Part shown: one piece after another, positions 24,288 to 45,914 of the stretch
Position numbering within the stretch: the first letter of the stretch is position 1
Layout: each line of letters opens with the position of its first letter
Assembly (NCBI GenBank): GCA_017462735.1
Contig: JAFTQO010000005.1
Coordinates: forward strand, 1-45,914
Origin: Clostridia bacterium
GTDB lineage: Bacteria; Bacillota; Clostridia; Christensenellales; Borkfalkiaceae
DNA length: 45,914 bases
Reading direction: 5' to 3'
Notes under the pieces: model-generated
What the model was told of the DNA's origin: nothing
Seen by the model: only the letters and a program-made list of their open reading frames with translations
Database searches by the model: none
Position numbers and translations under genes: made by a program

Positions 24288-24302
24288 AACTGACAATAAA
24301 AA

Positions 24303-24422
24303 TATCTTTGGGGCGGAGTGAGATTCTCCACCGGCAGTACAGTCTGCGAAGGAAACGGTAAGTTTCCCCGAGTTGGTGAAATTCCAACACCGACGGTTAA
24401 AGTCCGGATGGGAAAAGAAAGG
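24303..24422 (+). promoter_or_regulatory. FMN riboswitch (RFN element)
   Basis: The RFN blocks are readable in order: GGGGCGGAGTGAGATTCTCC, ACCGGCAGTACAGTCTGCGA, GGTGAAATTCCAACACCGAC and GGTTAAAGTCCGGATGGGA, with closing pairs CTTT/AAAG. It binds flavin mononucleotide and controls the riboflavin transporter gene just downstream. With FMN bound, the terminator at 24452-24477 should form and stop transcription. Confidence 0.95.
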
Positions 24423-24451
24423 CGTAATTTCGCCTTGCTTTCTACAATCAC

Positions 24452-42550: not shown

Positions 42551-43999
42551 ATGAAGAGATTTTTAGCCGTTGTTTTGGCGTTTTGTTGTTTGCCTATCGT
42601 CGTGTGTTTCGCTAGTTGCGACGAAGAGGTGGATAGCGGTATATCCTATGAAATCACGGCGGAATATATCCCCGAAAGCCGTTCGCTTTTTGCCACTATG
42701 AAAGTGACGTACGAGCAAAAGACGGACGCCGTCAAGGAAGACTTACGCTTTCAACTGCCTCCTAACGCTTACCGAAAAGGGGCGCTCTATCCCGCGGTGT
42801 CTTCGACTTATCACGCCAGCGCCTATTACGAGGGGGACAGTTACGGGGAAATCGTCATTACCAGCGTCGTTGGCGGGAAGGGGTGGCAGGTATGCGGCGA
42901 CGATAACAACGTTCTCGTGGTGGACTTGGAAACACCCGTAGAGCAGGGGGGTAAAGTGGTGCTCGATATCGGTTTCGTCACTCGGCTGGCGCAGGTCAAT
43001 CACCGTACGGGCGTTAGTGAAAAGGCCGTCAATTTAGGCAATTTTTTCCCGATACTGTGCGCGGACTTGGGGCAAGGGTTCGTGGAGACTCCGTACTATT
43101 GCGTCGGCGATCCTTTTTTGTCCGAGTGCGCCGATTATACCGTGCGGATAAAAGCCCCTAAGGGATACGTAGTGGCGGCGACGGGGAGATTGCAGGAAGA
43201 ACAGGTTTTAGAAAGCAAAAAACAATCCGTGTTCGAGGCGGAGAACGTACGGGATTTTGCGATGGCGTTGTCGGAGGACTTTCAGGTACTAGAAAAACGG
43301 ATTGGCAAGACGACGGCACAGTATTACTATATCGACGATCATAAAGCGAAGGAGCGTTTGGCGCTGATAGGCGAGGCGCTCACCTGTTTTTCTTCTGCGT
43401 TCGGCGAATATGCGTACGATACGTACAGCGTCGTGCAGACGGGTTTTTGTATGGGCGGGATGGAATATCCCGGGTTGACGTTCGTGGCGGCGGGCTTGGA
43501 CGAAAAAAGCACGTTGCAGGCAATCGTACACGAAACGGCGCACCAATGGTGGTATGCGGCGGTAGGCAGCGACCAAGTCCACGAGGCGTGGCAGGACGAA
43601 GGGCTGACGGAATACTCCACGATATACTTTTTTGAAAAGTCGCCTAAGTACGGGTTGAGTAAAGAAAAATTAGTGGAGGGTAGTTTAACGGCGTGTCGGG
43701 CATATCGTGAGGTGTACGGCAGTATTTTTGGAGAAGACGGGAAGATGTCGAGACGGTTAGACGAGTACGTCAGCGAATATGCTTATCGGGTACTTGCCTA
43801 CGACAAAGGGGTGGTACTCTTTGATAATTTACGCCGCAGTATAGGGGATAAAAAATTCTTTTCCGCGTTAAAAAAATATTATACGGCAGGGAAATACGAT
43901 TTGGTGTCCGTCGGGACGTTAAAAGGCGCGTTTGAGAAAGCGGGCGTCGACGTATCGGGGCTAATCGATTCTTTTTTGGAGGGGAAGGTGATTATCTAG
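42551..43999 (+). CDS. M1-family (gluzincin) peptidase lipoprotein
   Basis: 482 residues. A signal peptide ends in a lipobox-like CFASC, so C23 is probably lipidated. An N-terminal beta domain (about 30-250) is followed by a peptidase domain with GGMEYPG (302-308, the counterpart of the GAMEN exopeptidase motif) and the zinc site HETAHQWW (H327, E328, H331) with E350 in DEGLTEY, that is HExxH-x18-E. A Tyr in the ALVYEKG-like stretch (VLAYDKGVVLF) fits M1 enzymes. The GxMEN Asn is replaced by Tyr, so classical aminopeptidase activity is uncertain. The gene lies next to spoIIQ with a sigma-E type promoter, which suggests a role in the mother-cell envelope during sporulation. Confidence 0.88.
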   Translation: MKRFLAVVLAFCCLPIVVCFASCDEEVDSGISYEITAEYIPESRSLFATMKVTYEQKTDAVKEDLRFQLPPNAYRKGALYPAVSSTYHASAYYEGDSYGEIVITSVVGGKGWQVCGDDNNVLVVDLETPVEQGGKVVLDIGFVTRLAQVNHRTGVSEKAVNLGNFFPILCADLGQGFVETPYYCVGDPFLSECADYTVRIKAPKGYVVAATGRLQEEQVLESKKQSVFEAENVRDFAMALSEDFQVLEKRIGKTTAQYYYIDDHKAKERLALIGEALTCFSSAFGEYAYDTYSVVQTGFCMGGMEYPGLTFVAAGLDEKSTLQAIVHETAHQWWYAAVGSDQVHEAWQDEGLTEYSTIYFFEKSPKYGLSKEKLVEGSLTACRAYREVYGSIFGEDGKMSRRLDEYVSEYAYRVLAYDKGVVLFDNLRRSIGDKKFFSALKKYYTAGKYDLVSVGTLKGAFEKAGVDVSGLIDSFLEGKVII

Positions 44000-44062
44000 C
44001 CTAAAAAAGCCCAAAAAGCGAAAAAAACTTGTCTAGGGCGGTAATTTTTTATGAAAAAATAC

Positions 44063-44091
44063 TTGCCAAATGAAATTCCTGGGGGTATAAT
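44063..44091 (+). promoter_or_regulatory. Promoter of the corA leader
   Basis: TTGCCA (44063-44068), 17 bases, TATAAT (44086-44091). Transcription should start near 44098, about 250 bases before corA. Confidence 0.88.
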
Positions 44092-44151
44092 AGAAAGGTA
44101 GCGACCCGTTGCCGAAGGGTAAATTAAGCGCGTCGCGACAAGGAGCACATT

Positions 44152-44211
44152 ATGGACGCTGTCCCTGACAACCGAAGTAGTATGTTTAACTTGATAAACC
44201 TCCCGCAGTGA
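44152..44211 (+). CDS. Putative 19-residue leader peptide of corA
   Basis: ATG 44152 follows AAGGAG by 6 bases and opens a 19-codon frame, MDAVPDNRSSMFNLINLPQ, ended by TGA TAG. It lies inside the structured leader and before the terminator. The acidic/proline start (M-D-A-V-P-D) recalls MgtL of Salmonella (MEPDP...), where such residues make ribosomes fall apart at low Mg2+ and so turn on a Mg2+ transporter gene. That mechanism here is inference. Whether the peptide is conserved is unknown to me. Confidence 0.5.
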   Translation: MDAVPDNRSSMFNLINLPQ

Positions 44212-44242
44212 TAGGTAAGTTGTAGTCAATACGACGATACGG

Positions 44243-44274
44243 ACGCACGGGCGGTTTTTCCCGTGCGTTTTTTG
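44243..44274 (+). terminator. Terminator at the end of the corA leader
   Basis: ACGCACGGG (44243-44251) and CCCGTGCGT (44260-44268) with an 8-base loop and six T. It lies 75 bases before corA, in the right place for attenuation. Confidence 0.92.
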
Positions 44275-44348
44275 TTTTGATTTTCCGTTTTTTGTGGATA
44301 AAGCAGGCAAAAACGCTTTAGCAAAATCCCACGAAAGGCGGTGATAGT

Positions 44349-45335
44349 ATGTTGAAAATTTATAAGAGTGAAAACCTCCGCGTACAACCCTTGGAAGATT
44401 TTGAGACTCGTTGCTGGATTGACCTTGTCAACCCGACGGACGACGAAGTCGATACGGTTTTAGAGTGGTCGGGTATGCCCGAAGAGTTCTTAAAAGCCGC
44501 ACTCGACGAAGAAGAATCGGCGCGTGTGGAGTCTGACGAAGGGACGACGATGTACATCCTCGACAGTCCTATGCTCGTCGACGCAGAAGAAGGGGACAAG
44601 TATTCGACGATACCCGTGGCGATTGTGTATAACAACCGCTGTATCGTCACCGTATCCTTGCAGTCCAATCCCGTTTTTGCGGGGTTCCGTTCCAACCGTA
44701 GCAAGGTGTCTACCTCCAAACCTTTGGACTTTATCTTGAACTTCATGTTGGAAAACGCAAAGCGTTTCTCTGCGTTGCTCCGTCAAATCGATAAAAAATC
44801 CTTGCGTTTGCAGGCGGAATTGCATAAGTCCATGCGTAATCAGGAACTCATTGAACTGTTGGAATTGCAAAATTCCCTCGTCTATTTCTCGACGTCGCTT
44901 TCCGCCAACACCTCCGTATACGGTAGGTTGTCGCGCGTTTCGCAGTCTAGCGAAGAGTATCAAGACTTGTTTGAAGACGTGCAGATTGAGACTCGTCAGG
45001 CAACCGAGATGTGTTCGATATATAGAGATATTTTAAAGACGACGATGGACGCGTTCAGTTCGGTCATTTCCAACAACGTGAATAACGTCGTAAAAAGATT
45101 GACGATTATCACGATTTTGGTAGCGATTCCTACGCTGATTGCCGGGCTTTTGGGTATGAACGTAAAACTGCCTTGGGGAATGAGCGGGGAAACGGGTAGT
45201 CCGTTTGAGTTTTGGATAATTCTCGGCGTATGTATCTTGCTGACGACTGTTTGTTCGATATTGCTGGTGCGTATGACGGACAAGGTTCGTATCCGTACCC
45301 CTAAGGAAGTCAAGAAGAAGAGGAGAAAAGACTGA
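44349..45335 (+). CDS. corA: CorA family Mg2+/divalent metal channel
   Basis: 328 residues. A cytoplasmic alpha/beta domain (1-130), a long helical stalk (130-250) and two C-terminal membrane segments (about 250-268 and 287-307). The pore signature GMN is at 269-271 (LLGMNVKLPWG), followed by a periplasmic loop and a basic C-terminal tail (RIRTPKEVKKKRRKD). It forms pentameric channels that let Mg2+ (or Co2+/Ni2+) in. The ribosome binding site is GGCGGTGAT. Transcription must pass through the structured leader and terminator, so expression is probably conditional. The FmdB-like gene overlaps its stop by one base. Confidence 0.95.
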   Translation: MLKIYKSENLRVQPLEDFETRCWIDLVNPTDDEVDTVLEWSGMPEEFLKAALDEEESARVESDEGTTMYILDSPMLVDAEEGDKYSTIPVAIVYNNRCIVTVSLQSNPVFAGFRSNRSKVSTSKPLDFILNFMLENAKRFSALLRQIDKKSLRLQAELHKSMRNQELIELLELQNSLVYFSTSLSANTSVYGRLSRVSQSSEEYQDLFEDVQIETRQATEMCSIYRDILKTTMDAFSSVISNNVNNVVKRLTIITILVAIPTLIAGLLGMNVKLPWGMSGETGSPFEFWIILGVCILLTTVCSILLVRMTDKVRIRTPKEVKKKRRKD

Positions 45336-45529
45336 TGCCTTTTTTGCAATATAAGTGTCCTAAATGCGGCAAAAATTTTGACGAACTGGTCAAATCGCAC
45401 TTGGACGAAGTTAAGTGCCCGACTTGCGGAGAAAAAGCGGTACGTTCGTACAGCGGCGAGATGCTTTCTTCGACGGGAAAACCCGTCAAAAAATGCACGG
45501 GCAATTGCAAAACCTGTAGCGGTTGTTAA
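45335..45529 (+). CDS. FmdB-like zinc-ribbon protein
   Basis: 64 residues. FmdB/CxxC ribbon: FLQYKCPKCGKNFDELVKSHLDEVKCPTCGEKAVRSYSG, with four zinc Cys in two CxxC pairs, and an added Cys-rich tail (KKCTGNCKTCSGC). The family role is unclear; some members are called regulatory proteins. It starts within the corA stop codon (TGATG), so it is translationally coupled to corA. Confidence 0.85.
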   Translation: MPFLQYKCPKCGKNFDELVKSHLDEVKCPTCGEKAVRSYSGEMLSSTGKPVKKCTGNCKTCSGC

Positions 45530-45619: not shown

Positions 45620-45723
45620 AAAAAAGGGAAAAAATAAAGTAGAGAAAAAAATTGAAAAAAAGCAAAAAAATCGAAAAATCATGGAAAAAAACGCTTGACT
45701 TTATTTTTTCTAGATGTTATTAT
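45620..45723 (+). promoter_or_regulatory. Strong rRNA-type promoter with A-tract upstream region
   Basis: TTGACT (45695-45700), 17 bases, TATTAT (45718-45723). Upstream, seven A-runs of 5-7 bases are centred near 45622, 45631, 45648, 45658, 45667, 45676 and 45688, mostly 9-10 bp apart. This suits an UP element and bent DNA, typical of rRNA promoters. Confidence 0.75.
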
Positions 45724-45730
45724 AGTTAGG

Positions 45731-45887
45731 CTGTCGCGTAAAAAGGACGGCAAGAAGCACTCTGATGAGTGTGAGAGAAGAGAAGATTAACAACTGCATA
45801 GCAAAGAAAACAAGTTTTTCTTATGGAAGATAAGAAAGACGAGTACGAAAGGCAAAATTTTTCATATTAAGAAAAAGTAAAGCTAAT
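45731..45887 (+). other. Leader (precursor) region before 23S rRNA
   Basis: No open frame. It contains a boxB-like hairpin CACTC-TGAT-GAGTG (45759-45772) followed by a purine-rich stretch and TTAACAACTGCATAGC, which resembles the boxA-type and spacer sequences found before 23S genes. The assignment rests on resemblance only. Confidence 0.5.
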
Positions 45888-45914
45888 TGGTTAATAAGCA
45901 AAATTACGAAGGGC
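45888..45914 (+). rRNA. Probable 5' end of a 23S rRNA gene, cut by the window end
   Basis: The last bases, GGTTAATAAGC then AAAATTACGAAGGGC, match the start of bacterial 23S rRNA (GGTTAAG...TAC-AAGGGC-GCACGGTGGATGCC in many Firmicutes). Only about 27 bases are present, so the call depends on this short match, the strong promoter and the leader. Confidence 0.6.

Follow-up and report, generated by a model that had tools for sequence, protein, structure and literature searches.

We analysed a window of 45,914 nucleotides, near the end of which a leader region lies between a gene for an M1-family peptidase (42551-43999) and corA (44349-45335, + strand). The product of corA is a CorA-type divalent cation (Mg2+) channel (PF01544, 192 bits, E 1.6e-56). 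Solved CorA chains are among its relatives (E 1.6e-26), and its score against the NCBIfam corA equivalog TIGR00383 (120.7) is below the cut-off of 200.75. The gene directly 3' of corA (45335-45529), which adjoins corA in 13 other loci of the genus as well, encodes an FmdB-type zinc-ribbon protein of 64 aa. The end of the window (45683-45914) has a promoter-like stretch (TTGACT...) and then a purine-rich region without a listed ORF of 60 codons. Also identified in the window were an FMN riboswitch aptamer (RF00050, 102 bits; 24300-24423, + strand) and a tRNA gene (RF00005; 5101-5188, - strand).

Leader layout and conservation in the genus

All features of the leader are on the + strand. The leader, for which the transcription start is a predicted one, has the promoter TTGCCA-N17-TATAAT (44063-44091), with 11 of 12 consensus matches. 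A Shine-Dalgarno (SD) sequence (AAGGAG, 44140-44145) precedes an ORF of 19 codons, MDAVPDNRSSMFNLINLPQ (44152-44211, or to 44214 with the second stop), that ends in a double stop (TGA then TAG, 44209-44214). Codons 2 to 6 (44155-44169) encode D-A-V-P-D, the putative acidic/proline sensor segment, which gives the peptide D2, P5 and D6. The rare codons CGA AGT follow (44173-44178). The candidate 5' strand of an antiterminator, AAACCTCCCGCAGTGA (about 44196-44211), comprises the ORF tail and the first stop, and CCGCAGTG is the putative pairing partner of the terminator arm in this leader. The intrinsic terminator (44242-44273) has a stem formed by 44242-44251 with 44260-44269, a loop at 44252-44259 and then a T tract, and it overlaps the candidate 3' strand of the antiterminator (about 44244-44258). 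The SD sequence of corA is AGGCGGT (44336-44342).

One terminator-like site occurs in 43700-44600, where shuffles give 0.9, so the terminator alone is not beyond chance. The stability of the single-sequence fold of the leader is also unremarkable (z -0.65). The leader is above chance because its promoter, SD sequence, ORF, ORF-tail element and terminator recur 5' of corA in 13 further genus members, which were identified by a DNA search of 57 genus genomes. In each of the 13 the match is flanked by the M1-peptidase gene and corA and the FmdB-type gene follows, and synteny with corA holds in 14 of the 14 genus loci compared. A fifteenth genus locus (L053, from genome G007) was recovered by protein search. 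TATAAT is present in 13/13 leaders, preceded at 17 nt by TTGCCA or TTGCAA in 12/13 (the exception is L053, where the script picked a different TATAAT).

In an alignment of 14 genus leaders the promoter, SD sequence and ATGGA are conserved and CGAAGT is invariant. The 14 leaders also share a CCGC-N-G-Y-G element, a terminator with hardly any variation (GCACGGGCGGTTTTTCCCGTGC) and AGGCGGT, the SD sequence of corA, which is identical in all of them. The 5' part of the RNA and the stretch between ORF and terminator are variable. Leader ORFs of the genus are 19 to 33 codons long, and encode D2 in 14/14 members and P5 in 12/14 (S in L018, H in L013).

An earlier note on this DNA, made from the letters alone, had claimed the promoter, the 19-codon ORF with AAGGAG and a double stop (44140-44214), and a terminator before corA (44242-44269 plus T tract). 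All three were confirmed and are conserved in the genus. The note had named lack of conservation of the ORF while the stems covary as an outcome that would refute its reading, and this is excluded by the conservation of the ORF.

Acidic-proline ORFs and their codons upstream of corA

Related ORFs were identified 5' of corA at every level from genus to phylum. We examined 232 corA upstream regions retrieved after CorA searches of the family, order, class and phylum, where the phylum is that assigned by the genome classification used. They comprise all 49 corA loci of 201 family genomes, and 66 of 130 order, 69 of 96 class and 48 of 66 phylum places (one locus, L066, is truncated by a contig end, yet was counted). 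A loose motif was defined as a short ORF preceded by an SD sequence, with an acidic residue at position 2 and Pro at 3-5, and a strict motif as acid, at most one residue, acid, Pro. The loose motif was found in 114 of the 232 regions; dinucleotide shuffles gave 4.75 and reverse complements 2. The strict motif was found in 58 (0.2 and 1, respectively). These and all other motif and locus counts were taken without correction for relatedness, which inflates them.

By level, the loose motif occurs in 10/11 genus, 32/38 family, 41/66 order, 13/69 class and 18/48 phylum loci. Thus, many corA genes lack it, especially at class and phylum level. In the window's own clades the strict motif is nearly absent (genus 0/11, family 1/38); the second acid before Pro is missing in the genus. 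The peptide expressions were fixed after the loci L057-L217 had been viewed, and the fair test is therefore that on 60 later loci (L218-L277), where the loose motif was found in 12 (0.98 expected) and the strict motif in 11 (0.04 expected). Among the starts of ordinary ORFs, a control that includes ten loci fetched for starting MDxDP, 4 of 350 have the loose motif.

The widespread form of the peptide is M-D-x-D-P-x-S, and typical examples are MDADPYSC, MDPDPYSRNC, VDGDPRS, MDCDPGGS and MEDPYS. An SD sequence followed by MDxDP (ATG start only) occurs 10 times in 151 order genomes. Only two of these ORFs have fewer than 50 codons, and both lie 5' of corA (G366, G358); the remaining eight are 96 codons or longer. 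A pattern scan of genome contigs gave 18 stretches, 7 of them 5' of corA, all on contigs already in the set; the 11 without corA in the available DNA were taken as chance matches. A similar ORF was found in 2 of 28 mgtE upstream regions (L299, L301), in L299 behind an M-box. In 112 order genomes, 55 have CorA, 51 have MgtE and 7 have both (Fisher p 2e-12). This alternation is consistent with CorA being a main Mg2+ importer where the leader occurs. Searches of the open-licence PMC literature turned up no account of the leader in this phylum or otherwise outside Gammaproteobacteria, and a report elsewhere may exist.

Codon choice differs between the motif and the codons that follow it. Pro codons in 115 non-redundant ORFs are CCT (50), CCA (32), CCG (21) and CCC (12), and the acidic codons GAC, GAT, GAA and GAG are all used in leader ORFs. 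This free choice of Asp, Glu and Pro codons implies that the N-terminus is selected as a peptide. Ser at codons 5-9, in contrast, is AGT in 97/116 cases after de-duplication (window family 35/43, order 37/42, class and phylum 25/31). Arg at these codons is CGA in 23/26, 17/30 and 7/14 cases in the same three groups, also de-duplicated. In leader ORFs from outside the window family, CGA accounts for 24 of 44 Arg codons at 5-9 but for only 4 of 31 at 10-13 (not de-duplicated). In corA itself AGT makes up 5-16% of Ser codons and CGA 4-9% of Arg codons, and among the early codons of ordinary ORFs they account for 15/105 Ser and 7/74 Arg. AGT is found in frame at codons 6-9 in 97 cases, vs 3 and 1 in the other frames, and its flanking bases are not fixed, which points to decoding more than to RNA structure. 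By a general measure (not de-duplicated), rare codons are enriched at codon 3 and codons 5 to 13 in the window family and mainly at codons 6-8 in the order, and show no enrichment in class and phylum. The codons just after the acidic-proline motif look to be selected themselves. Both AGT and CGA are read by wobble and are taken as slow; in E. coli they are read by tRNAs carrying 2-thiocytidine 32.

The over-use of AGT and CGA at codons 5-9 relative to the control ORFs, and the frame bias of AGT, would be expected if the ribosome stalled stably at these codons, with the supply or modification of the cognate tRNAs as the signal and the acidic-proline part only helping. However, the target gene encodes an Mg2+ transporter and is no Ser or Arg gene, and strong conservation of the acidic residue 2 and of the Pro is seen at the amino-acid level, with free choice of codons. 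We therefore consider attenuation by codon or tRNA to be unlikely.

Antiterminator pairing, ribosome position and other outputs

To evaluate the antiterminator, 60 nt from codon 7 onward were paired with the terminator 5' arm and loop, and partners were swapped among loci (5000 permutations). In the window family (13 genus and 29 family loci, n=42) the mean energy was -14.23 kcal/mol with own partners and -11.15 kcal/mol with swapped ones (0/5000). Shuffling the ORF stretch gave -9.06 kcal/mol, and z was below -1 in 37/42 loci. The order gave a similar result (own -14.34, swapped -10.56, shuffled -9.96 kcal/mol; 0/5000; z below -1 in 18/26), with 26 of 31 terminator-bearing loci passing the filters. 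Family loci alone differ clearly (-12.51 own vs -9.56 swapped, 0/5000), and genus loci alone only weakly (-18.08 vs -17.10, 97/5000). When only the genus is considered, 85.5% of cells retain the pairing, compared with at most 64.0% for slid versions, and covariation by pair counts is not above shuffles (124/500). The strong antiterminator signal stems from the wider family and the order, where clade composition may contribute. Thus, mutually exclusive terminator and antiterminator pairings are predicted for the window family and the order, and are weak within the genus. By eye, the ORF tail often mimics the terminator 3' arm (e.g., CTGTACG in L057).

The earlier note had proposed competing stems in which the terminator 5' arm pairs alternatively with CCCGTTGC at the start of the RNA. 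The competition between terminator and antiterminator is borne out, but this partner is not. Of 12 genus leaders captured to the 5' end, only that of the window has the sequence, and the 11 others lack it (L053 was not captured that far and was left out). Pairing of the RNA start with the terminator arm is no better with own than with swapped partners (-12.57 vs -13.04, with 4281/5000 permutations at least as good, n=12), and we rejected an antiterminator at the RNA start. The partner supported by the pairing comparisons is probably the ORF tail instead.

The antiterminator strand is positioned by its distance from the start codon. It begins at a median of +42 from the A of ATG (IQR 40-45, SD 7.3, n=42), whereas stop codons are spread from +30 to +102 (SD 19.5). 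With the ribosome footprint set to -14 to +17 around the P-site codon, a ribosome at codon 5 leaves the whole strand free on its 3' side in 41 of the 42 loci, and one that moves from codon 10 through to the last codon covers half of the strand or more in 37. Folding was also masked by the ribosome and evaluated for RNA that still lacks the 3' arm. On average, the share of the 5' arm engaged in antiterminator pairs was 0.66 without a ribosome and 0.71 with one at codon 5, and dropped to 0.20 (codon 16) and 0.28 (last codon). For the complete RNA at equilibrium, the mean pair probability of the terminator was 0.78 with no ribosome, 0.72 at codon 5, 0.90 at codon 16 and 0.91 at the last codon. 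The geometry and the masked folding thus agree with switching by ribosome position, while the full-length equilibrium favours the terminator throughout. As the terminator is favoured at equilibrium in every state, the switch must act during transcription, and a kinetic advantage of the antiterminator is assumed.

A permissive scan of ORF-bearing loci, which were chosen by an ORF rule that missed two genus ORFs without Pro5, detected a terminator in 13/13 genus, 29/33 family, 31/49 order, 6/18 class and 7/23 phylum loci. These counts bear on the possibility that a fixed terminator releases a stand-alone small RNA, with corA expressed by unregulated read-through. The almost invariant terminator stem-loop of the genus would fit such an RNA, but synteny with corA in 14/14 loci and the covariation of the antiterminator do not, and in distant relatives the ORF is often retained although no terminator was detected. 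We find it hardly credible that this is the function of the leader.

In four loci of the window's family (L072, L075, L102, L106) no terminator was found, and a hairpin is present in its place. The ORF tail still pairs with the 5' arm of that hairpin (e.g., CCTTTCCGCAT with ATGCGGAGAGG in L075), and these hairpins are perhaps a translational version of the switch. Some loci that lack a strong terminator have the potential to sequester the corA SD sequence (e.g., AACCCTCA with AGAGGGTG in L171). The comparison covered 52 of the 56 eligible loci of this kind, and own pairing (-10.05) was stronger than swapped pairing (-8.67; 0/5000). The effect is weak to moderate (mean z -0.73, with z below -1 in only 18/52). 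Sequestration is likely real for some lineages only.

An Rfam search of the window leader, a check that the earlier note had suggested against known riboswitches, identified no family at the gathering score. Four hits up to E 5 are to eukaryotic microRNA and snoRNA families and to GP20-b, all far below the cut-off, and the M-box aptamer (RF00380) has no match in the window leader. M-boxes were absent from the 13 genus, family and order loci scanned. At class and phylum level an M-box lies 5' of the candidate ORF in 17 of 47 loci scanned, some of which were admitted by a loose rule (e.g., without an acid at position 2); its position 5' of the ORF or corA was determined by motif in 16 of the 17 and by coordinates for L272. 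M-boxes were also found in 4/20 corA loci without a detected ORF and in 3/20 mgtE loci. There is no clear enrichment, and we regard the co-occurrence of M-box and ORF as context. Where an M-box is followed by a peptide-type leader before corA (L164, L240, L258 and others), two putative Mg2+ controls are arranged in series. A fluoride riboswitch (36.5 bits) was identified near corA in one class-level locus (L172:1384-1455).

These M-boxes would be in keeping with a leader that is itself a metal-binding riboswitch, with an ORF that plays no part in it. However, the window leader and the 13 genus, family and order loci scanned lack them, and they also occur at corA loci without a detected ORF. 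The 5' region of the RNA is variable even within the genus, the fold of the leader is unremarkable, and conservation tracks the reading frame and codons. We consider a metal-binding riboswitch very unlikely here.

Proposed mechanism and comparison with known leaders

We propose, as the probable function of the leader, a translation-coupled attenuator in which the ribosome on the leader peptide is the Mg2+ sensor that controls corA transcription. With enough Mg2+, the ribosome would run through the ORF and cover codons of about 13-19, which hold the antiterminator 5' strand. With that strand covered, the terminator would form and corA would be off. At low Mg2+ the ribosome would be destabilised or held on the acidic-proline N-terminus, its failure perhaps assisted by the rare codons CGA and AGT after the motif, and would drop off or stall short of about codon 10. 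This would leave the antiterminator strand (about +42 to +56 relative to the ATG) free to capture the emerging terminator 5' arm, so that corA would be transcribed. Four steps of this scheme are inferred: translation of the ORF, Mg2+ as the signal, drop-off of the ribosome as opposed to stable arrest, and read-through by RNA polymerase. Computation gave the conservation of the ORF, the covariation and geometry of the antiterminator and the codon signature, and a conserved corA-linked leader-ORF attenuator very probably exists. That Mg2+ is sensed via ribosome instability appears fairly probable from the sequences.

In E. coli, low Mg2+ favours dissociation of the ribosome on the EPDP start of MgtL, and mgtA is transcribed (PMC11282234). 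According to the same source, replacement of Glu2 and Asp4 of MgtL brought an mgtL fusion in an ettA mutant back to the wild-type level and made expression of an mgtA fusion undetectable. The mgtL leader of Salmonella and E. coli resembles the one described here in being a short ORF with an acidic/proline N-terminus before an Mg2+ transporter gene (PMC11282234, PMC11552253), and the widespread M-D-x-D-P-x-S resembles EPDP. The predicted signals of a short ORF 5' of a regulated gene (SD sequence, frame, and conservation of amino acids and codons) are present in our leader, and two apparent hallmarks of MgtL-type leaders, acidic/proline residues at the very N-terminus and a location 5' of an Mg2+ transporter gene, were also found. 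In these respects the earlier note's reading of an MgtL-like attenuator is supported, the leader ORF being most conserved at its acidic/proline N-terminus.

Unlike the present leader, mgtL belongs to Gammaproteobacteria, acts by Rho-dependent termination and controls mgtA. Here an intrinsic terminator is present instead of the Rho-dependent termination of gammaproteobacterial mgtL and corL, and forms a terminator/antiterminator pair in the window family, with the antiterminator strand at the ORF tail and with AGT and CGA favoured. By analogy, the leader would work like MgtL with a different output, which sets it apart from the Rho-dependent gammaproteobacterial leaders.

Other known leaders are similar in part. 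In E. coli, translation of corL controls corA and Rho takes part (PMC11552253). The corL of Salmonella and E. coli is likewise a short ORF 5' of corA, with translation that is inverse to corA expression and Mg2+-dependent, but as presented in that report it is Rho-dependent, starts with UUG and has few acidic/proline residues (PMC11552253). The corA motif (Stav et al., 2019) is also directly 5' of corA. However, its 325 representatives are given as all from Gammaproteobacteria or metagenomes, and it was proposed as a riboswitch candidate (PMC6429828). The M-box (ykoK) riboswitch shares the Mg2+ control of transporter genes and is found 5' of candidate ORFs in distant relatives, but it is an aptamer without a peptide and is absent from the window leader. 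In mycobacteria, a conserved short ORF with a conserved N-terminal Pro (rv1805A) lies between an M-box and the Mg2+-related pe20 operon (PMC12810186). The same source calls this peptide mycobacteria-specific, and it differs in having Pro at position 7, in being Rho-dependent and in lying 5' of pe20 rather than corA (PMC12810186).

The same attenuator could respond to another stress on the ribosome, such as Co2+ or Mn2+, the loss of an ABC-F or EF-P factor, or a ribosome antibiotic. E. coli corA also responds to Mn2+ according to PMC11552253, and EttA alters the translation of MgtL (PMC11282234). The alternation of CorA and MgtE, however, points indirectly to Mg2+ supply, and we think a signal other than Mg2+ quite unlikely.

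Beyond the attenuator proposed for corA in the window, and more tentatively, the leaders could form a phylum-wide class of Mg2+-sensing leader peptides of the form M-D-x-D-P-x-S. These would combine a destabilising start with slow codons at 5-9, nearly obligatory there (AGU for Ser, and CGA for Arg), as a dwell timer. Their outputs could be the antiterminator in the window's order, SD sequestration in some other lineages, and stacking behind M-boxes. To our knowledge, Mg2+ sensing by ribosome instability has so far been found in gammaproteobacterial leaders, namely mgtL and perhaps corL. If such a class exists, this form of sensing would be in general use at corA in another phylum as well, perhaps through convergent evolution. 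The leaders would then be a rich natural collection of destabilising N-termini and would point to selection for certain codons inside these, so that the reason why ribosomes fall off at acidic-proline starts and AGU/CGA codons could be tested directly. They would also be short, portable leaders that may respond to Mg2+.
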